Shown here one piece after another: positions 4,718 to 51,568 of a stretch of 64,000 nucleotides of DNA; position 1 is the first letter of the stretch, and each line of letters starts with the position of its first letter. The notes below the pieces were generated by a model. It ran no database searches and had not been told where the DNA came from. It saw only the letters and a program-made list of their open reading frames with translations. This DNA is from Candidatus Bathyarchaeia archaeon (GTDB lineage Archaea > Thermoproteota > Bathyarchaeia > Bathyarchaeales > Bathycorpusculaceae): NCBI GenBank assembly GCA_038873195.1, contig JAVZEV010000001.1, positions 462,490-526,489 on the forward strand, given 5' to 3'. Made by a program: the position numbers and the translations under genes.

Positions 4718-5794
4718 TTATTTTTGGTTTATGCTTTTAAGGACTTGCTCGTAGTATCTTGGGCAGTAGGTTAGCGTTATTTGATGAAAACTGCTTTTTG
4801 GCGTTATTACCTCTTCCAAGTTTCCTTCCACGTAGACCTTTTCATCTTTGAATGCTTGCATGCGAAACTCTTCCATGTAAGACACTACACGCTCAATTTC
4901 GTCAGCGCCAGCTTCTCCTTCTATAATTTCTAACGGTTCGACGCCATAAACTGAAGGAATAAAAGGCGCGTCGCAGTCTTCGGTTATGCGCGCAAAAAGT
5001 TTAACCCAGCCCTTCTGCACAATCCTTCCGTCAAGAAAATATGCTTTATGTATTTCTTTCCAGTCTTTCACGGGTTCAAACTCTGCCTTTATGGTTCTTC
5101 CGCTTTGTTTGTCATTAAACACTGCGTAAATCAGTTTTCTCTGCTGATGCCAAACGAACTCTATGGCGCTGTAATTTCTGAATCTCCAAGCTTTCCCTTT
5201 TATTGAATCATCGTTTTCAAACTCGTTCTTAAATTGAGAATTTCCGTCACAATAAAGCGCCAGAAGAGCCTCTCGCAGTTTTGCCAAGTTTTTTCCGCCA
5301 TAAACGATTAGGTCTATGTCAGAAAACTTTGGATGGTAGAACCCGTGAAGGAGAGAACCGAAAACGCCAAAATTCCTTTCAGATAAACCCGCATGGTCAG
5401 TTACAATTTTCAAAACGTTTTTTAAAGCGTTTAAAAGCTCGTCTTTCGGCTCTTTTTCAACAAGTTGCACAAGTCCTTCATCTGGTTTCCGTGTTTCCAT
5501 AATATTTGCGCGTTTAACGCCAACAACCTTCTTACGAATAGTAGGCAGAAATATCATGTGCTCTGGAAAATTTTCTTTAACAAATTTCCAGCCTTCATCC
5601 TCATAAAACTTAAAGAAGACGCGGTTTCCATCAGTTCTAAACGCTTTAGGATTATTAGACTTAAAAATTTCTGCCGGCGCATATTCAACATCGCAAACAT
5701 ATGCATTTGCTGGATGAGAATAGCCAAAAACGCGAAAAATCAAGCCTTCTCTGGTTACTATTGTGTCGCGGTCTCTAAGTTTCAGATTGGCCAA
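4718..5794 (-). CDS. Archaeal nucleotidyltransferase-domain protein, paralogue 2
   Basis: A 358-residue paralogue of the flanking nucleotidyltransferases. It shares the N-terminal segment [18 protein letters not shown], the GS (146-147) and SDID (158-161) active-site residues, and the C-terminal [17 protein letters not shown] block. It starts at TTG 5794, which overlaps the end of paralogue 3 by 13 nt and has GAGG about 10 nt upstream, so translation is coupled. The role is unknown; conserved acidic residues suggest an active enzyme. Confidence 0.8.
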
Positions 5795-6936
5795 ATGTAC
5801 TCTTCCTCGCTTACGCCGGTTCCAACAACAACTTGGTAAAAAACTTCATCTTTGCAAAGACCTTCAACCTTTTCCAGTGTTCCGGCAACCTTGATTTTGT
5901 CTCCTTTCCTCGCAACGTTCCTATAACATCCAATCATTGAAACTACGAGTGTTGGGATTTTTTCTTTTGGAATGTCTGAAGTTTGATTTGCTGGTGTGTA
6001 ATCTTCTATTTTGTAAATTGCTGGGCGGAACATGGCTTCACTGTCATCGTTAACCGTGCATGTGAATTTTAATGGAGCTAAAGGCGTGAATTTGTAAGCG
6101 CCATATTCCACGTGAATCTCCTCTTTTTTGCGAACTGCGTTGTACATGAAAATCTTCCCAGAAAAGCGCCCTTTAAAACGTCTTGCAGCGTCTAAACGGT
6201 TATTGAAGACATAACTTAACTTTTTAGCTTCAACAAGCCTTTCCACTGTTTTCTCTAGTTTGCGGAAGTTTTCTGCGCCATAAACAACAATGTCTATGTC
6301 GGATTTTGACGAGTGCATGTTAAGGGCTATGGAGCCATGAACGCCAAAGTCTTCAATAGCTATGCCAGACTCGTCAGACAACAAATTGACAAAATCCAAA
6401 GTCATTTTCTGCAAGCGGTCATGCCGTTTCTGCTTAATTATAGAGGCCAAGCAATCCCGCGGAACATAAACCCTTTCAACCGAACCCAACGGCGCACTTA
6501 TTACATATTTACCCCTAAAAGGACAGAAATATACATAACTTGGAAAGTTTTTACGAAAAGTTTCAAGAAAAACCTGATAATTTTGGACCGTATAGAGTTT
6601 TTCGGCGCGGAAAAGTTCCAGCTGCCCATATTTCCACGTTCGCTCCAGAAACTCGATTTGAAAGAGCGTTTTGAACTTGGAAGGAATGTACTTTAAGAAG
6701 GCGAAAACGCGATCTTGCGGATGTTCATAGCCGAAGACGTTGAGTATGAAGCCTTCTTTGGTTGCGATGGTGTCGCCGTCCGCTGGAACCCAGTCTTTAG
6801 TAGTCGTTTTGGTGCACCTTGATAAAATGGTGTGAGGGAATGTTAAAAAGTCTATTGCACATACAACAGAAAACTTAAAATCAAATCCTAATAGAGCATT
6901 TAAACGTGACCTGCGTGAAAGAAAGTTTACATCCAT
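5782..6936 (-). CDS. Archaeal nucleotidyltransferase-domain protein, paralogue 3 (start uncertain)
   Basis: The third paralogue, with [19 protein letters not shown] as catalytic core and [13 protein letters not shown] plus [12 protein letters not shown] in the C-terminal part. Homology to the others begins at [12 protein letters not shown]. The only in-frame ATG upstream is at 6936; it gives a ~50-residue unmatched extension and overlaps the divergent gene that starts at 6906. A GTG at 6817 has a TATA-like TTTTTAA about 26 nt upstream and would give a normal N-terminus (MHQTTTKDW), but only if one A of the run at 6807-6810 is dropped. Either the gene uses an odd start or the N-terminus is frameshifted. 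Confidence 0.7.
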
Positions 6937-18837: not shown

Positions 18838-21282
18838 TTATTTCTTCTCTTTCCTCTTCAACATATTCTCCAAAACAGGACGCAACTTCGCATTCTCCGC
18901 TTTAATCTTCTCCTTACCCAAAGCCTGCATCTGCGCAGCCATCTCACGAACAACCTCAGCAAACTTCACGCCTTCAGCTGCAGAAACATACTCCACACGG
19001 AACCTTTCTGGGCTAAGTCCAAGCTTCTGCAACATAGGCGCCAAAGCATCCATCCTAGCCTTCATCTTCCAATTCCCACTAATATAGTGACAATCATAAG
19101 GCAAATGGCAAGCACCAATCAAAACCATACCCGCGCCAAGCCTAAACGCCTCCAAAACAAAATCACGGTCAACCCTACCAGAACACATAACACGAATAGG
19201 CCTAATCACAGGCGGATACTCAAACCTGCTCGTGCCAGCCAAATCCGCACCTGCATAACTGCACCAGTTGCATAAAATCGCCAAAATCTTATCTTCAGGC
19301 TCCCTCTCCAAAGCAGCCCTAATCTGAGCCAAAATCTGCGCATCAGTAAAATGCATCTGCGTAATCGCGTCAGCAGGACACTCAGCAACGCATGTTCCAC
19401 AACCGTGACACATGGCAGTTATAACTTCCGCTGGCTTCTTCTCCTCAACCTTTATCGAGCCATACGGACAACGCTCAGCACAAATCCCACATTTAGTATT
19501 AACATTCCTACACTTGCTCGGGTCCACAACAGAAACTATCGGCTCAATCTTCCACTTAGGCTTAGAAAGCACAGTCGCCGCACGCGAAGCCGCACCACTA
19601 CCCTGCGAAACGCTGTAGGGAATATCCTTCAACCCCTGACAGGCACCAGCTAAAAAAATCCCGTCAGTAGGCGCATCAATAGGCTTAAGCTTAGGATGAC
19701 TCTCCATGAAAAACCCATCAGCCCCACGAGTCAAATTCAAAATACGCGCAATCTCATCCGTGCCCTTCTTCGGTATAGCTGCAGTCGCCAAAACAACCAT
19801 GTCCGCTTCAACTTCAATCGGCTCACCAAGCGTCATATCCTCAGCATGAACCAGCAAATTCTTCGTCTCAGGAACTTCCAAAATGCGGCTCACTCGCCCA
19901 CGAATAAAATTCACACCCAACTCACGCGCACGGTCATAAAACTCCTCATAACCCTTAAAGTTGCTACGCATATCCATGTAAAAAACGTAAACCTCCACAT
20001 CCTGCTTATACTTCTCCTTAAGCTGAACAACATGCTTCAAAGTATACATACAACAAAAGTTAGAACAATACGGATACTTGTTCTTATCCCGCGAACCAAC
20101 ACACTGAATAAACGCTACGCTATGCGGTTTCTGCCCATCCGAAGCCCGAACAACCTTCCCGCCAGTAGGACCAGCAGCAAGAATAAGCCTCTCAAACTCA
20201 AGCGAAGTAATCACGTTGGGATATTTGCCATAACCATAAAGCGGCATGTCATAAGGCAAATAAATATCATAACCAGTCGCAACAACAATCGCCCCAACCT
20301 CCAACTCAATTTCCTCGGGTTTCTGCTCAAAATTTATCGCTTGCCGCGCTCCACAAGCATCAACACACTTGTAACACTCAATACAATAATCCTTGTTAAT
20401 CGTGTAAACAAGCGGAACCGCCTGGTCAAAAGGCACAGAAATCGCTTTTCTAACGCCTAAATTCATGTCCCACTCGTTAGGATACTCAATCGGACAAGCC
20501 TCCTTACACTCGCCACAGCCCGTGCAGTTAGCAGCAATCACATAACGCGGATTCTTCCTTATCTTAACCTTAAAATTGCCAATGTAACCGCTAACACTTA
20601 ACAAGTCAGCAAAAGCAATTATCTCAATATTCGGATGCCTTCCAACATCAACCATCTTCGGACCTTCAATACAAATAGAACAGTCAAGCGTTGGAAACGT
20701 CTTATCCAACTGCGCCATGTGACCACCAATGCTTTCGCCCTTCTCAAGCACATACACCTTAAAGCCCATCTCAGCCAAATCCAAAGCAGCATTCATCCCA
20801 GAAATGCCGCCGCCAATAACCAAAGCCTTATTCGTAACAGGAACTTCAATCGTCTGAAGCGGATGCAGCAACCTCGCCTTCGCAACAGCCATCCTTATCA
20901 AATCTTTAGCCTTCTCCGTAGCCTCCTTCGGCGTGCTCGGATGACACCAAGACGAAAATTCACGGATATTCGCCATCTCAAACAAAAATGGGTTCAAGCC
21001 AACATCAGAAACAGTCCTACGAAAAGTAGGCTCATGCATACGCGGAGAACAAGCTGCGACAACAACACGGTTCAGCTTATGCTCCCTTATTCCCTTCCTA
21101 ATTTCCTCTTGTCCAGGGTCTGCGCATGTGTAGCGGTTGTCTTTAACGTAAACAACATTTGGCAACGTCTTAGCGTATTCAACGAGTTCTTTAATGTCGA
21201 TTACGCCAGCTATGTTCAAGCCACAGTGACATATGAAAACGCCAATTCGCGGCTCCTCAAACTCAACCTTCTTTTCAGCCAT
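18838..21282 (-). CDS. hdrA: Heterodisulfide reductase subunit A fused to MvhD-type domain
   Basis: An 814-residue flavin/iron-sulfur protein. In order: N-terminal HdrA domain with ICHCGLNIAG; FAD-binding GGGISGM (157-163); ferredoxin motifs at 253-263 and about 307-318; ferredoxin pairs CGICAERCP and CHGCGTCVAECP; and from about residue 665 an MvhD/FlpD-type domain (CNWCSYAG at 671, MCSGRVD, GACHLPYDCHY). HdrA bifurcates electrons and MvhD links it to a hydrogenase or dehydrogenase, so the fusion is a compact electron hub. ATG 21282 has GGGTG upstream. The polyferredoxin gene precedes it by 2 nt. HdrB, HdrC and a hydrogenase are absent from the window. Confidence 0.93.
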   Translation of the reverse strand: MAEKKVEFEEPRIGVFICHCGLNIAGVIDIKELVEYAKTLPNVVYVKDNRYTCADPGQEEIRKGIREHKLNRVVVAACSPRMHEPTFRRTVSDVGLNPFLFEMANIREFSSWCHPSTPKEATEKAKDLIRMAVAKARLLHPLQTIEVPVTNKALVIGGGISGMNAALDLAEMGFKVYVLEKGESIGGHMAQLDKTFPTLDCSICIEGPKMVDVGRHPNIEIIAFADLLSVSGYIGNFKVKIRKNPRYVIAANCTGCGECKEACPIEYPNEWDMNLGVRKAISVPFDQAVPLVYTINKDYCIECYKCVDACGARQAINFEQKPEEIELEVGAIVVATGYDIYLPYDMPLYGYGKYPNVITSLEFERLILAAGPTGGKVVRASDGQKPHSVAFIQCVGSRDKNKYPYCSNFCCMYTLKHVVQLKEKYKQDVEVYVFYMDMRSNFKGYEEFYDRARELGVNFIRGRVSRILEVPETKNLLVHAEDMTLGEPIEVEADMVVLATAAIPKKGTDEIARILNLTRGADGFFMESHPKLKPIDAPTDGIFLAGACQGLKDIPYSVSQGSGAASRAATVLSKPKWKIEPIVSVVDPSKCRNVNTKCGICAERCPYGSIKVEEKKPAEVITAMCHGCGTCVAECPADAITQMHFTDAQILAQIRAALEREPEDKILAILCNWCSYAGADLAGTSRFEYPPVIRPIRVMCSGRVDRDFVLEAFRLGAGMVLIGACHLPYDCHYISGNWKMKARMDALAPMLQKLGLSPERFRVEYVSAAEGVKFAEVVREMAAQMQALGKEKIKAENAKLRPVLENMLKRKEKK

Positions 21283-21284
21283 AC

Positions 21285-22223
21285 TTACACACCCTTCCAT
21301 CCAAGCCTTTTCTCAACAGATTCCATTCCTTTCCGAGAACCCTTAGCCTTCAACTCCTTAGTCACCTCAATCGGCGAAGCCAACCTTTCCAAAGCTTTAT
21401 TCCACGCGCCTGAACGAACAGGAGTATGAATTATCTTCGTCCGCTTAAGCTCTAAAGCATCCTCAACTGGACAAACAACTTTACATGCACCACAATAAAC
21501 ACAAAACATTTCGTCTACGTGCACTTTCTTATCCTCATCAGAATAGTAAAGTGCCCCAGTTATTGGGCAAACGTCAAGGCAGTCCGTGCAGCCTTCCGGA
21601 CACTTCTCAGCATGAATTGCGATTTTGCCATGAATAAACTTCTTAACGCGCATGACGCCTTCTGGACATTTGAACTCGCATATTCTACAACATGGACAAT
21701 GCTCTTTGTCCACGTCAATTTTAACTTGAAGGTCCTTCCTTTCTTTCTTTGTAAGCTTCTTGACGTTTTCCACCGTTTTTCCATCAGGTGTGAGCCATGT
21801 TATCTTAACCAGATTAAGGGGACATGCCTCTTCACACTTTAAACTCTCTGGTGGATATTTGCTTGCGTCCACTTGAATGTCACGAATCAGTTGCGGAAAG
21901 CTTTCCTTCTCAATCACTGAAAGGACATGCTGACCGTTCAAAGTTACCTTTACTGCGCCGTATGGACATAGTACGTCGCATATTCCACAAAAATTACATT
22001 TTGCCAAATCAATGTCAACCTTAGCCCTCTTGGCTTTTTCTCCCTGCGTTTTAGGCTGTTTCTCAAGTTTGATAGCTTCTTTTGGGCAAGCCAAAGCGCA
22101 GATTTGGCATCCTACGCAAAGGTTTTTGTCAAGATTAAGTTTGTAATTTTTAACGTGGAGAACCCATTCTAATGTTAACGCTTCTTGTGTGCTCTTTTTT
22201 ATTGTTTTTAGAGGCATCTGCAA
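21285..22223 (-). CDS. Polyferredoxin with five [4Fe-4S] motifs
   Basis: A 312-residue protein holding CVGCQICALACP, CNFCGICDVLCP, CPCCRICEFKCP, CPEGCTDCLDVCP and CVYCGACKVVCP, each followed by a short beta/linker segment, plus a degenerate site (KCEEACPLN). It should wire electrons to or from the HdrA-MvhD protein encoded directly downstream. No other redox subunit is in the operon, so the partner donor is unknown. An ATG two codons after the first is an alternative start. Confidence 0.9.
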   Translation of the reverse strand: MQMPLKTIKKSTQEALTLEWVLHVKNYKLNLDKNLCVGCQICALACPKEAIKLEKQPKTQGEKAKRAKVDIDLAKCNFCGICDVLCPYGAVKVTLNGQHVLSVIEKESFPQLIRDIQVDASKYPPESLKCEEACPLNLVKITWLTPDGKTVENVKKLTKKERKDLQVKIDVDKEHCPCCRICEFKCPEGVMRVKKFIHGKIAIHAEKCPEGCTDCLDVCPITGALYYSDEDKKVHVDEMFCVYCGACKVVCPVEDALELKRTKIIHTPVRSGAWNKALERLASPIEVTKELKAKGSRKGMESVEKRLGWKGV

Positions 22224-27111: not shown

Positions 27112-27936
27112 ATGTCAATACTTGAAGTTAAAAGCGTGTCGAAAACTTTCATGATGGAGAAAACCAGAATATTAGTGCTAGACAATGTGAGTTTTTCAGT
27201 TGGAAACGATGAGTTTGTGTGTTTAGTTGGGCCTTCAGGCTGTGGAAAATCCACAATACTCCGAATAATCGCAGGTTTAGAAAAAGCCGATTCAGGCGAG
27301 GTGTTGTTTCACGGGCAACCTCTTACTCAATCCACGCCAAAAATTGCAATGGTCTTCCAGCTTTTCGGTTTGTTACCCTGGAAAACATCACTGGAAAACA
27401 TTGAAGTGCCCTTAGAAGTACTTGGTATAGAAAAGGAAAAACGAAAGCATATTGCTGAAGAATATTTAAGAATGGTTGGACTTGAAGGTTTCGAAAACAC
27501 TTATCCTCATGACCTTTCGGGTGGAATGAAGCAACGCGTTGGAATCGCAAGAGCACTCGCATTGAAACCTGAAGTCTTGCTTATGGATGAGCCTTTCTCT
27601 TCTCTAGACGAACTTACAGCAAAAACTCTTCGGGAATTGGTGCTTGACATCTGGCGAAACCCAACGTTACCAACTAATACTTTTGTGATGGTGAGCCATA
27701 ACGTTGAGGAGGCAGTTTTCATGGCAGACAGAATAATAGTGATGTCACCACGACCAGGAAAAGTCATCGGAGAAGTCAAAATTGATATTCCAAGACCACG
27801 CACTAAACATTTACGAGACCCAGAATATTTCCGATTCGTTGACGAAGTTGTAGAATTGCTAGAAAAAGACAAAACAAAGACAGCAAGTGAAAGTCCTATA
27901 TCGTTAACCGCGAAGCGAGCAAACAAACTGAAATGA
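27112..27936 (+). CDS. NitT/TauT-type ABC transporter ATP-binding protein
   Basis: A 274-residue ATPase: Walker A GPSGCGKST, Q-loop VFQLFGLLPW, signature LSGGMKQR, Walker B VLLMDEPFSSLD, H-loop VSHNVEEA, then the nitrate/taurine-family tail (MSPRPGKVIGEVKIDIPRPR). It powers the fused permease encoded immediately upstream. Candidate substrates of the family are nitrate, sulfonates, thiamine precursors and bicarbonate; nothing here selects among them. Confidence 0.93.
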   Translation: MSILEVKSVSKTFMMEKTRILVLDNVSFSVGNDEFVCLVGPSGCGKSTILRIIAGLEKADSGEVLFHGQPLTQSTPKIAMVFQLFGLLPWKTSLENIEVPLEVLGIEKEKRKHIAEEYLRMVGLEGFENTYPHDLSGGMKQRVGIARALALKPEVLLMDEPFSSLDELTAKTLRELVLDIWRNPTLPTNTFVMVSHNVEEAVFMADRIIVMSPRPGKVIGEVKIDIPRPRTKHLRDPEYFRFVDEVVELLEKDKTKTASESPISLTAKRANKLK

Positions 27937-27944
27937 ATTTTATG

Positions 27945-29630
27945 TTATGCATAAGCCTTGGAGATAACTTCTACTAAAGTTTCATGCTCTTTCTCAGAAA
28001 GCCAGCCTTCATTTTTTAGCGATTTTAAGTTGTTCAGGATTTCTTCTCGTGCCGATTCTGCTTTTAAAATATCGGTTCTGCTGCCTTTCTCGCTTATTTC
28101 TCTTTCAAAAACTGCGTTTCGCTCGATTAACGCTGGAAGTCTATAGAAGTGTGAGCTTAGACTTTTGAAGCGTGGGGCAAGTAACTGTTTGATTTTGGCT
28201 CTACCTAGAACTCCTTTGAGTTTTGTTAAGAAGCTTATGCTGTTTACGATGGATGGAGGGAAAATTACGAAGCGTTTGCCTTTTTCAGAGGTGTAGCAGA
28301 CTAAATATAACGGCACATAAATTATCGTGTTTTGTTTATGTTTTTGTTCAATTCCAAGCTTTTCAAATCCAGCAAGCCCCGTTTCTCTCATCTTAGCCAT
28401 CTTGTTTATCTGCTCAATTATAGTCGCAGTCGTTTTCTCCAGTTTTTCTATTTCTTGCTTGTGAAACTGAATTTTAGAGTCACGAGAAGCTTCAAGTTCT
28501 AACAAATCTTTTTTGGCTTCTTTTATTTTGGCTTCCCATTCAGACTTCAGCCTTATAGTTTCAATCGACCTGGTATCTTCCACTTCTTTTATTCTCTTTC
28601 CAACATCCTTTATCTTCGATTCGATGTCGGAGAGTTCTTTTTTGGTTTCGCTTATTTTTTCTTTCCATTTTCGTTCGCCGACAGCATCCTTGCTTGCTGC
28701 TCGTGTTTTTGCTTCCAGTTTGTAGCGTTCAATTCTGTTAAGCGTTTGTTCTTTGGTTTTTTCAAATTTGACCTTCTCTTTTTGCAACGGAAGAAGTTGT
28801 TTTTCGATGTCTTTTGCGAGTTTAGCTATTTTCTCGTTGTATTCTTCGTTTATGCGGTCTACTTTAGGTTTTACGATGGCTTCTTGTTTTTTGATTTCTC
28901 TGTTGAATTCGTCTTTGATTGTTTTTATTTTGGCTCTAATTGTTTTAGTGAAGTTGCGTGTTGTGTTGTTTAATAGTTTTATGCTGCCGTAAAGAGCGTC
29001 AATTTCTTCTTTAAACGTGGTTTTGAGATTTTCAAGTTCTTGCAATGAAGAAAGGATAGAGGATTCTTCCAAGGTGGGTGATAACATGGTCAAATCTGAC
29101 AGGGAGGTTTCAACTTGATTGGCTTCGTTAAGGTATGAGGCAAATTCGCTGAGGAAACTTGGGTCGCTAATGAGGCCATTTATTGCAATTTCTTTTGCGC
29201 CTTCGGGAATTTGGAAATAGTTGATGTTGTCAACAAGAGAAGCCATGTATGTCTCGAGGGTTTTTGAGCTTCTTTCGATGTTTTCGGTAAACGCCTTTAC
29301 GTCGGGAATGGCGTTATAAGTCAAAGTGTAAGCTGTATTGCTTAACCCATCGAAAAGAAGGTTAAGCTTGCTCCAAGGGATAAGCCAGAAAGGATAACAA
29401 AACTCGGATATGAAAGCTATTTTTTCTGCGGGTTGCTTCAGGATTAGGCCGCCACCTTTGGCTCTTTCCAGTTCAGCGAAGCAGAAAATGGCGGTTTTTT
29501 CCATTTCTTTTGTGAATTCTTCCTTTCGGTTTTCAGAGAGCGCTGAAAAGGGAAGAATGAGTTTGGCGGTTTCAGAACGTGGATATTCAATCATTTTATG
29601 ATTCACGCTATTATAGATTAGTAAGTTCAT
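27945..29630 (-). CDS. Long coiled-coil protein of unknown function
   Basis: A 561-residue protein. The N-terminal ~200 residues are mixed alpha/beta (YCPFWLIPWSKLNLLFDG-like hydrophobic patches; FISEFCYPFW). Residues about 200-400 form a highly charged coiled coil (repeats such as KEKVKFEKTKEQTLNRIERY). The last 160 residues are globular (IYVPLYLVCYTSEKGKRF, then a helical tail). No catalytic motif or transmembrane helix is evident. ATG 29630 or the ATG 12 codons later could start it; no Shine-Dalgarno precedes either. Convergent with the ABC importer; not in an operon. No family recognised. Confidence 0.75.
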   Translation of the reverse strand: MNLLIYNSVNHKMIEYPRSETAKLILPFSALSENRKEEFTKEMEKTAIFCFAELERAKGGGLILKQPAEKIAFISEFCYPFWLIPWSKLNLLFDGLSNTAYTLTYNAIPDVKAFTENIERSSKTLETYMASLVDNINYFQIPEGAKEIAINGLISDPSFLSEFASYLNEANQVETSLSDLTMLSPTLEESSILSSLQELENLKTTFKEEIDALYGSIKLLNNTTRNFTKTIRAKIKTIKDEFNREIKKQEAIVKPKVDRINEEYNEKIAKLAKDIEKQLLPLQKEKVKFEKTKEQTLNRIERYKLEAKTRAASKDAVGERKWKEKISETKKELSDIESKIKDVGKRIKEVEDTRSIETIRLKSEWEAKIKEAKKDLLELEASRDSKIQFHKQEIEKLEKTTATIIEQINKMAKMRETGLAGFEKLGIEQKHKQNTIIYVPLYLVCYTSEKGKRFVIFPPSIVNSISFLTKLKGVLGRAKIKQLLAPRFKSLSSHFYRLPALIERNAVFEREISEKGSRTDILKAESAREEILNNLKSLKNEGWLSEKEHETLVEVISKAYA

Positions 29631-38005: not shown

Positions 38006-38111
38006 GGATTAAACATTGTTTTTCTTCAAGTTATAGACATATGTGTGTCTTACAGCCAAGTGTACAATATGTACTGTACGCAAAAAAAGGACAGAAAACT
38101 AGCAAGAAAAG

Positions 38112-38215
38112 CGCCGGGAGTGGGATTTGAACCCACGCGGCCCTTTCGGGCCACAGGCTGAATGGCGCTTTTCGCGTCTCCAGGCCTGCTCCCTACCTGA
38201 CTAGGAGACCCCGGC
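38112..38215 (-). tRNA. tRNA-Ser (GGA) with 18-nt intron
   Basis: Acceptor GCCGGGG (38209-38215) pairs with TCCCGGC (38113-38119). The T-arm is GTGGG/TTCAAAT/CCCAC and the long variable arm GGCCC/GAAA/GGGCC marks a type II tRNA. The anticodon stem CAGGC/GCCTG closes the loop CTGGAG-A once an 18-nt intron (38160-38177) is removed after position 37, giving anticodon GGA. The junction folds as a relaxed bulge-helix-bulge: bulges AGA and TCA flank TGG/CCA, with CGC/GCG closing the intron loop. Discriminator G at 38112. Confidence 0.92.
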
Positions 38216-38525: not shown

Positions 38526-39143
38526 TTAGCGCTTTTCCGCCATCAACACTCGATAGCCACTTTCCCGCGCCAAAATTGTGAAATTTCCAAAAGCTTCTTC
38601 AAAAAAAGATTGCAGTCTTTTTCCTCCAATTTTAGATCTCACAACCATTTGAAAAAGAGCTTTGCTAGTCATGTGCGCTGGCGCTTCAGTAATTATTGCT
38701 TTAACCGTGCTCATTCCAGCACTCACAGGAGGATTAGAAAGAATACAGTCAAAAGTCAAATCTCCAACAGGCTCGTATAAATTTCCACACCTAACTTCAG
38801 CATTGCCAACACGGTTAATTTCAATGTTCTGCTTCGCAAGCCAAACCGCACGTTCATTCACGTCAACCATCACAACACGCAAACTCGGATTAAAAGTGGC
38901 AGCAGCAACTCCAACAGCGCCATATCCGCATCCAACATCTAAAACACTACCCTTCTCAGGAAGAAGCATAGACTCAACCAAAAGCTTAGTACCCAAATCC
39001 ACACGCTTCTTGGAAAACACGCCCGAAGCCGTCAAAAATTCAAATGAAACACCACGAAGACAAACGTGGATTTTTCCAAGCTTCAGCTTAGACCTTGGTT
39101 GAGCAGCAAAATAGTGGTTTAAGCCATCATGTTTCTGTGGCAT
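38526..39143 (-). CDS. RsmC-like class I methyltransferase
   Basis: A 205-residue methyltransferase of the MTS/RsmC type: GVFSKKRVDLGTKLLVES, SAM motif VLDVGCGYGAVGVAAA, and the catalytic DCILSNPPVSAGMS (NPP[FY]-like, for base N-methylation), ending in YRVLMAEKR. It probably methylates guanine in rRNA or tRNA. ATG 39143 (MPQKHDGLNHYF) lies 1 nt past the cbf5 stop codon, so the two are coupled; upstream in-frame starts would lie inside cbf5. Confidence 0.87.
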   Translation of the reverse strand: MPQKHDGLNHYFAAQPRSKLKLGKIHVCLRGVSFEFLTASGVFSKKRVDLGTKLLVESMLLPEKGSVLDVGCGYGAVGVAAATFNPSLRVVMVDVNERAVWLAKQNIEINRVGNAEVRCGNLYEPVGDLTFDCILSNPPVSAGMSTVKAIITEAPAHMTSKALFQMVVRSKIGGKRLQSFFEEAFGNFTILARESGYRVLMAEKR

Positions 39144-39144
39144 T

Positions 39145-40178
39145 TTAAATTTCGCCACTTTTCCAACATTTCGGATAAGTGCCTCTAGGCATAAGAACCC
39201 TCTTTGTTTCCGCAACAATACCATGTTCCATATGCAAAATTTCTTCTGTAGAAGCAGTAGCCTTAGCCAAAGCCACAGCCTCACCTTTCAACGACAACAC
39301 AGCCACCATTGAACCATCCTTTATTCCAGTTTCAAGAGACAAAACGCCCGGCGCCGTAAGGTTTGCTCCATGACAAACAGCATCAACAGCAGAATCTCTA
39401 ATGTAAATCTTCGGAACCAAAGCCAACGCGGTTTCCATCGGTCTTATAAATTTCTTAAGAATTTGGTCATCTTTCTGTTGCTGCCATTCCATAAACCAGT
39501 AAGCCACATCATGCAAAGTAACAATTTCTCCACCATCCTCAACAAACGGTCCCGCCCTTGTCCTACGCAATTCCTGCATGTGCGCACCACAACCTAAAAC
39601 TTCTCCAACATCATAGCAGAGTTTGCGTATGTATGTGCCACCCTCGCATCCAACTTTGAAAAGCACATTTCGCCCATCCTTCTCCAGAAAGTCAATGTAA
39701 TAGATTTTTCTTGTTCGCAGTTGACGTTTAACAGAAGCTCTCAAGGGTGGTCGCTGATAAATTGTATCTTCAAACTTCGCCAGCACCTCCCTAACAACCT
39801 CTTCATTTACGTCTCCATGAAGTTTCATAACACAAATGTACTCTTTCCCGCTGTGAAGCAGAGCTTGAACTGTCTTTCTAGACTCCTCTAAGGTTACTGG
39901 CAACACACCGGTCACGTTGGGATTTCTCTGGCTTAACGCTTTTAAACCTCTAGAGTCCCGCCGTGACCAACATGCTCCACATGAAGTATGCGTTTAACCC
40001 AAGCAGCTACTTCGTGGCTTGTGGGACCTGCTGGCTTGTCAAGGTTTATGACACCAAAGCGGATGTATTCCTCAGCAGGTCTTTCTTCTGGTATGTGTCC
40101 ATAGCGCGGGTTTGTTTTGTCTTCAGCTTTCACTATTAGTTTGTGTTCAATTTCCCATGGAGCAACTGTTCTAGGCAT
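39145..40178 (-). CDS. cbf5: Cbf5 (dyskerin/TruB-type) pseudouridine synthase, split by an mRNA intron
   Basis: The coding sequence is complement(join(39145..39923,39950..40178)): 335 residues, the usual archaeal Cbf5 length. Exon 1 encodes the N-terminus through INLDKPAGPTSHEV and HVGHGGTL; exon 2 continues DPNVTGVLPV, placing the catalytic aspartate codon across the junction. Later features are CVMKLHGD, GTYIRKL and a C-terminal PUA domain (GVLSLETGIKDGSMVAVLSLKGEAVA). Cbf5 is the catalytic subunit of H/ACA guide RNPs and also acts on tRNA position 55. It lies downstream of rpl14e, the common archaeal order. Unspliced, exon 1 hits TAA within the intron. Confidence 0.95.
39924..39949 (-). 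other. 26-nt bulge-helix-bulge intron in cbf5
   Basis: On the minus strand the exon GGGA pairs with exon TCCC, then CTCT pairs with AGAG as a 4-bp central helix flanked by 3-nt bulges AGA and AAA. The intron interior folds as GGTTTAA/TTAAGCC with an AAGCG loop. Cutting after the second nucleotide of each bulge removes 26 nt and joins CTAG to ATCCC, restoring Leu-Asp-Pro. Introns in cbf5 are established in Crenarchaeota. Confidence 0.95.
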
Positions 40179-40235: not shown

Positions 40236-40520
40236 CTAAGCCAGTGCTGGCTTAACTATTTTAGCCATTTCTTCGAGTTTACCAGCAGCCTTTAACGCTT
40301 CTGTTACTTCTTCGTCCGACGCGCCTCGTTTAATGTCTATCTTATCCATTAGTGGCTCAATGTGGTTAACATTTGTTCTACGTCTCCTCACGCCTGAAAC
40401 AGTTTTTGGACCAGTTACTAAAACGAAACTCTTGTCTATTATGTCAACTATTACGCATTTTCTTCCAGCCTCTCGACCAAGCAGTTTCACACAGAGTCTA
40501 CCAACTTCTATTGCTGGCAA
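40236..40520 (-). CDS. rpl14e: 50S ribosomal protein L14e
   Basis: A 94-residue KOW-type protein: [33 protein letters not shown], then [16 protein letters not shown] and a helical tail. It matches archaeal L14e in length and motifs. The rpl14e-cbf5 arrangement (57-nt gap) is widely conserved, and both products serve ribosome biogenesis. Confidence 0.95.
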
Positions 40521-51440: not shown

Positions 51441-51462
51441 CTTCTCTATTCAATTTTGCGGT

Positions 51463-51568
51463 GGCGGGCCCGCCGGGAATTGAACCCGGGACCTACGGGT
51501 TAAGAGCCTCAACCTAACCCCGCTCGGCGGTTAGTCCGCCGCTCTGGCCTTACTGAGCTACGGGCCCT
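51463..51568 (-). tRNA. tRNA-Lys (CTT) with non-canonical 28-nt intron
   Basis: Acceptor GGGCCCG (51562-51568) pairs with CGGGCCC, with discriminator G at 51466 and an encoded CCA (51463-51465). Exon 1 is 51537-51568, the intron 51509-51536, exon 2 51466-51508. Splicing rebuilds the anticodon stem GCGGG/CCCGT around CTCTTAA, anticodon CTT. The intron lies between positions 30 and 31. Its fold is an ideal bulge-helix-bulge: outer AGAG/CTCT, central CGGC/GTTG, bulges GGA and AGG, inner CTAACC/GGTTAG. Confidence 0.95.

Follow-up and report, generated by a model that had tools for sequence, protein, structure and literature searches.

A plain open reading frame (ORF) call on the window, the whole 64-kb stretch of DNA analyzed here, places cbf5 on the minus strand at 40178-39145 as two ORFs in different frames with 26 nt between them, which raises the question of whether the gene is broken or interrupted by an intron. 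The initial annotation had described this arrangement correctly in both coordinates and sequence, and had expected ordinary gene callers to split the gene, as this call indeed does. The 26 nt are very probably a bulge-helix-bulge (BHB) intron of the cbf5 pre-mRNA, which would be removed by EndA and the exons joined by RtcB, and would represent the intron known from Sulfolobales and Desulfurococcales, most likely inherited from the ancestor of the phylum.

Gene structure and fold of the cbf5 intron

Excision of exactly 39949-39924 yields a 335-aa Cbf5 in which the catalytic motif G-H-G-G-T-L-D-P is whole, and the codon of the catalytic Asp-77 is divided across the two exons as G|AT. This spliced translation agrees with the earlier claim that cuts after the second nucleotide of each bulge would restore Leu-Asp-Pro and 335 residues. 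The spliced protein has Pfam matches to DKCLD (encoded by exon 1), TruB_N, TruB_C_2, and PUA, the domain set of Cbf5/dyskerin. The predicted spliced sequence across the junction is CTCTAGATCCC, 26 nt shorter than the unspliced form. When the intron is retained, an in-frame stop (GAG GTT TAA) is reached two codons into it, and the exon 1 frame is a 78-aa ORF with the end GGTLEV*. The intron is short and has no homing-endonuclease ORF. The ribosomal protein L14e gene directly upstream (Table 1) also adjoins cbf5 in Sulfolobaceae and other families, and the methyltransferase-like gene, which begins 1 nt past the cbf5 stop codon, likewise lies downstream of cbf5 in the related locus L178.

Table 1. 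Positions of cbf5, its intron, the BHB elements, and the neighboring genes in the window
Feature	Position	Strand	Description	Basis
L14e (eL14) gene	40236..40520	-	directly upstream of cbf5	ORF translation
cbf5 exon 1	39950..40178	-	codons 1-76 and first base of Asp-77	ORF call, spliced translation
Outer helix, 5' strand	39956..39959	-	GGGA; exon 1	fold
Central 4-bp helix, 5' strand	39952..39955	-	CTCT; exon 1, Thr-Leu codons	fold
5' bulge	39949..39951	-	AGA; predicted cut after second base, 39950/39949	fold
BHB intron (predicted)	39924..39949	-	26 nt, AGGTTTAAAAGCGTTAAGCCAGAGAA	fold; spliced translation; same site in 113 distinct loci
Inner stem, 5' strand	39942..39948	-	GGTTTAA	fold
Inner stem, 3' strand	39930..39936	-	TTAAGCC	fold
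Central helix, 3' strand	39926..39929	-	AGAG; intron	fold; covaries with exon 1
3' bulge	39923..39925	-	AAA; predicted cut after second base, 39924/39923	fold
Outer helix, 3' strand	39919..39922	-	TCCC; exon 2, Asp-Pro codons	fold
cbf5 exon 2	39145..39923	-	remainder of Asp-77 to stop; most of TruB_N, TruB_C_2, PUA	
Class I SAM-dependent methyltransferase-like gene	38526..39143	-		motifs VLDVGCGYG and SNPP, without family search

The minimum-energy fold of the intron region is a strict BHB (hBHBh') of -23.5 kcal/mol (z = -4.6), and none of 200 shuffles was as stable. It consists of two 3-nt bulges on either side of a 4-bp helix, and the predicted cuts, which fall between bases 2 and 3 of each bulge, are exactly the borders that rejoin GTLDP. 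The inner stem has 7 bp, including one U-G, and an additional helix (GUCACG/CGUGAC) flanks the motif. The pairing first proposed from the letters (GGGA/TCCC and CTCT/AGAG helices, AGA and AAA bulges, and an inner 7-bp stem) is the same in this fold. An Rfam search found no family over the intron.

With G-U pairs allowed, the window contains 20 BHB-like motifs per strand vs. 8-19 per strand in dinucleotide shuffles, and 7 motifs are left in the 64 kb when the outer and central helices are restricted to Watson-Crick pairs. Because such motifs arise often by chance, BHB shape is weak evidence when taken alone, and we rejected it as proof by itself given the similar counts in shuffled sequence. 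Excision would join open frames for four motifs in the window including that of cbf5, which is the only one of the four to rejoin a conserved protein motif and to have comparative support (the comparison was made for cbf5). The other three frame-joining motifs, at 27869-27985, 21233-21291, and 5722-5813, were judged to be adjacent genes. The case for the predicted cbf5 intron rests on comparison, beyond shape.

The insertion site in related archaea

In relatives of the protein and in genomes sampled from the genus to the phylum level, we placed the site by the Leu and Pro codons of GTLDP that flank it. Most named relatives of the spliced protein, and all of the closest ones, are Bathyarchaeota. 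An insert of 13-40 nt occurs at the identical base (CTN-G|AY-CCN, in the same Asp codon) in 113 distinct loci and is absent in 68; as phylum genomes with split or stop-containing matches were favored in sampling, this ratio is not a frequency, while per-family presence is unaffected. Related loci are non-independent samples. Amongst the 51 phylum families with a placed locus, the intron is found in at least one genome of 41, five of which are mixed, and was not seen in 10; the mixed family f23 has some loci with the intron and some without. This comparison of intron position across related genomes, which had been proposed as a check, identified one and the same base throughout.

The intron also lies at this site in the Thermoprotei archaeon locus L104, and at a base identical to that of the window in the intron loci of family f30. 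The L14e protein of one intron-bearing f30 locus (L205) is identical over 84 residues to a chain in PDB 8hku, and the other f30 L14e proteins are closest to 8hku or 2joy/2kds. We take 8hku to be from Sulfolobus acidocaldarius, and f30 to be Sulfolobaceae from the organism names of 8hku and 2joy/2kds. With f30 assigned by this L14e identity, the insertion site is the same as in Crenarchaeota, where the initial annotation had noted that cbf5 introns are known.

A congener (L013) carries the same 26-nt intron with one substitution that keeps the pairing, which counts against an assembly error. In intronless relatives, GTLDP reads straight through without a scar, and within the window's own family the intron has probably been lost in the clade that includes Bathycorpusculum. 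Amongst the matches listed, about 290 phylum genomes with a cbf5 match showed no break at any other cbf5 site except an intein in genome G022. Outside the phylum, none of 57 cbf5-matching genomes from the Methanolobus phylum shows a split near codon 77, and none of 20 named euryarchaeal loci has the intron. One genome of the Methanolobus phylum (G387:C2:69880-70779) has its cbf5 match in two pieces around codon 113-118 within one 419-aa open frame, which indicates an in-frame insert elsewhere in the gene.

Introns of 13-14 nt occur in several families (L148, L151, L157, L213, L215, L207, L214, L212, L199, L152, and L208). The three that were folded (L213, L199, and L148/L151) have no inner helix and take a bulge-helix-loop shape. 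The cbf5 gene of G022, which belongs to the window's family (L178:1003-3366), has a 22-nt BHB intron at the same site and, after GTYIRKL, an in-frame insert of ~1.5 kb that contains intein splicing and LAGLIDADG domains. This gene is predicted to need both RNA splicing and protein splicing. A brief literature search found no paper on a Cbf5 intein.

The cbf5 pre-mRNA intron of Desulfurococcales and Sulfolobales was reportedly described by Watanabe et al. in 2002 and Yoshinari et al. in 2006. It was also treated by Yokobori et al. in 2009, and its splicing is published for S. acidocaldarius (PMC2738675). That intron interrupts the same gene and splits the Asp codon of GTLDP at the same base, with a BHB at its borders, cleavage between bulge bases 2 and 3, a short length, and no homing-endonuclease ORF, as predicted in the window. 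It differs in that the host here is a member of the Bathyarchaeia, beyond the published range, and the published crenarchaeal motifs are mostly unconventional, whereas the window has a strict hBHBh'. Across the phylum, lengths go down to 13-14 nt, compared to the published 16-44. Archaeal tRNA and rRNA BHB introns share the motif and the EndA/RtcB chemistry, which for cbf5 of the window is predicted from the genes, but the cbf5 substrate is a protein-coding message with the intron between coding exons. In Haloferax volcanii, a BHB in mRNA is likewise processed by EndA, although the intron of HVO_1309 is in the 5' untranslated leader of an unrelated gene (PMC7714728).

Splicing machinery, covariation, and in-frame stops

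The genome encodes two separate EndA genes (PF01974) and RtcB. The alpha chain (L112 locus, minus-strand ORF 1474-2031, 185 aa) keeps the catalytic Tyr, His, and Lys and is closest to the catalytic subunits of S. tokodaii and A. pernix, while the catalytic His is replaced by Thr in the second, beta chain (L113, ORF of at most 206 aa). The two separate chains would form an (alpha-beta)2 heterotetramer. Lys-39 in the alpha loop GISKP aligns with VEKP (K44) of A. pernix and GISKP of S. tokodaii; K44 in the Crenarchaea-specific loop confers broad specificity to the A. pernix EndA (PMC6379350). The loop also occurs in this EndA of a member of the Bathyarchaeia and so is not restricted to Crenarchaeota. 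Two separate EndA genes are present in 28 of 30 sampled phylum genomes (the second match is short in one) and a single gene in the remaining 2. In each of three euryarchaeal outgroup genomes, EndA is one longer reading frame, which holds two matches in 2 of the 3. The expectation that this lineage has the same splicing machinery holds at the gene level, and the proposed search for an endonuclease able to cut mRNA bulges recovered a catalytic EndA gene with the broad-specificity loop lysine. From these genes we infer cutting and ligation: the two-chain EndA would cut behind the second base of both 3-nt bulges, and ligation of the exons by RtcB would produce full-length Cbf5 with Gly-Thr-Leu-Asp-Pro at its catalytic site, while an unspliced message would stop two codons into the intron and give only the 78-aa piece.

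Two tRNA genes in the window also have predicted introns (ARAGORN with introns allowed; Rfam): tRNA-Ser(GGA) at 38111-38215 (-) with 18 nt, and tRNA-Lys(CTT) at 51462-51567 (-) with 28 nt upstream of the anticodon and approximate splice sites. The default tRNA call misses both. Given these predicted introns, the cell should need EndA regardless of cbf5.

Of the 113 intron loci, 109 have a complete central helix, compared to a mean of 84.9 and a maximum of 93 when introns were reassigned at random (partner shuffle). The pairs CTCT/AGAG, CCCT/AGGG, CCCT/GGGG, and CCTT/AAGG interchange among loci, which are compensatory changes. Inner-helix positions pair in 77-85 of 86 loci vs. shuffled means of 45-66, with swaps between GC, CG, AT, and TA. 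The 5' bulge is AGA in 95 of the 113 loci. On the exon side, the Gly-Thr-Leu codons read GGN-ACY-CTA in 97/113 intron-bearing genes vs. 3/68 intronless genes, and within Bathyarchaeia alone in 27/34 vs. 0/18 (Fisher 1e-8).

All 29 introns of length 3n contain an in-frame stop (mean of 9.7 and maximum of 20 in shuffles), as do 31/43 and 21/41 introns of the two other length phases (shuffled means 14.4 and 12.0), and shared ancestry inflates these counts. A Bathyarchaeia set picked by protein similarity only, and not for stops, has an in-frame stop in 44 of 46 introns of any length (18/18, 16/17, and 10/11). This enrichment suggests that unspliced cbf5 messages are translated and that read-through is selected against.

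A regulatory role for retention is conceivable though doubtful: the supply of EndA, shared with pre-tRNA processing, would set the amount of Cbf5, with the retained message ending at the in-frame stop. Stops are enriched in all phases, even where a frameshift would end translation anyway, and negative regulation of Cbf5 has been proposed for Crenarchaeota (PMC2738675). However, stops are also expected from the avoidance of faulty protein made through leaky splicing, related rows inflate the stop counts, and repeated clean loss implies that the intron is dispensable. It is likewise an unlikely, tentative suggestion that the intron was kept at one fixed base since the ancestor of the phylum, in most families, as a switch of Cbf5 expression in which the unspliced message ends at residue 78. 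If true, EndA activity would set the level of an enzyme that modifies rRNA and tRNA.

Age of the cbf5 intron

Yokobori et al. (2009) placed the gain of the cbf5 intron in the ancestor of Desulfurococcales and Sulfolobales (PMC2738675), and a 2020 paper still calls it crenarchaeal (PMC7714728). Among the papers found in our literature search, none reports a cbf5 intron beyond Crenarchaeota. A Cbf5 tree of 95 sequences was built by a quick search; many of its deep branches are weak and three outgroup rows are misplaced. In this tree, intron-bearing rows fall in Bathyarchaeia, in clades containing Sulfolobaceae and Aigarchaeota, and in other clades, with intronless lineages nested inside. The tree requires at least 14 changes of intron state. 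For the node that joins the Bathyarchaeia and Sulfolobaceae clades, a two-state model puts the probability of intron presence between 0.90 (equal rates) and 0.985; because the tree is weak, the loss count and the root state are rough. The sampling for age covered one phylum and a euryarchaeal outgroup.

The intron probably dates back to the ancestor of the sampled phylum and has been lost repeatedly since, in about a dozen clean losses, and the published origin looks too recent. That ancestor, which would have given rise to Bathyarchaeia, Sulfolobaceae and their relatives, and the Aigarchaeota-containing and other families, would have had the intron, with one of the losses within the window's own family. 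One old gain followed by these losses is the simplest reading of the data, and we infer common ancestry over parallel gain. An improbable alternative is that a spliced intron entered one proto-splice site on several independent occasions, as the GTLDP codons (GGN-ACN-CTN-GAY-CCN) supply the GG...CC outer helix in advance. The pairing is indeed predisposed, with at least two of the four pairs in 53 of 68 intronless genes, and a model with a sizeable gain rate is accommodated by the data, fitting as well as one with near-zero gain (lnL -45.8 vs. -46.6). On the other hand, the ~290 genomes have no other break site among the matches listed except the G022 intein, most families have the intron, and intronless lineages are nested within intron-bearing ones. 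Moreover, intronless genes mostly use ACA and CTC/CTG/TTG, unlike the constrained codons, so that a re-gain would also require codon changes. Although plain ORF calling yields two ORFs that differ in frame, a broken gene, split two-chain protein, frameshift site, or assembly error is hardly credible, as 113 distinct loci in many assemblies, including single-contig genomes, share the site with flanks intact, the BHB is kept while lengths vary over 13-40 nt, 84 of the 113 introns have lengths other than a multiple of 3, with both other phases represented, which one frameshift cannot mend, and a split would divide the codon of catalytic Asp-77 itself.

For the predicted BHB intron, the mechanism and the gene were already known, whereas the literature searched apparently does not describe its occurrence in this host group, its breadth, a minimum length of 13-14 nt with no inner helix in the three folded, or the earlier origin. 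The occurrence of the same base in Sulfolobaceae and most other families shifts the meaning of the intron in the window from "also found here" to "old, repeatedly lost", and the inferred gain would move well before its published date. Automated annotation would split cbf5 in many uncultured archaea, and the intron explains why. The stop in every 3n intron points to translation of unspliced archaeal mRNA, and makes how splicing stays ahead of the ribosome a concrete question. What the literature treats as a crenarchaeal peculiarity is probably an mRNA intron as old as the phylum, kept or cleanly lost in a pattern that can be measured, at a site testable in many lineages.
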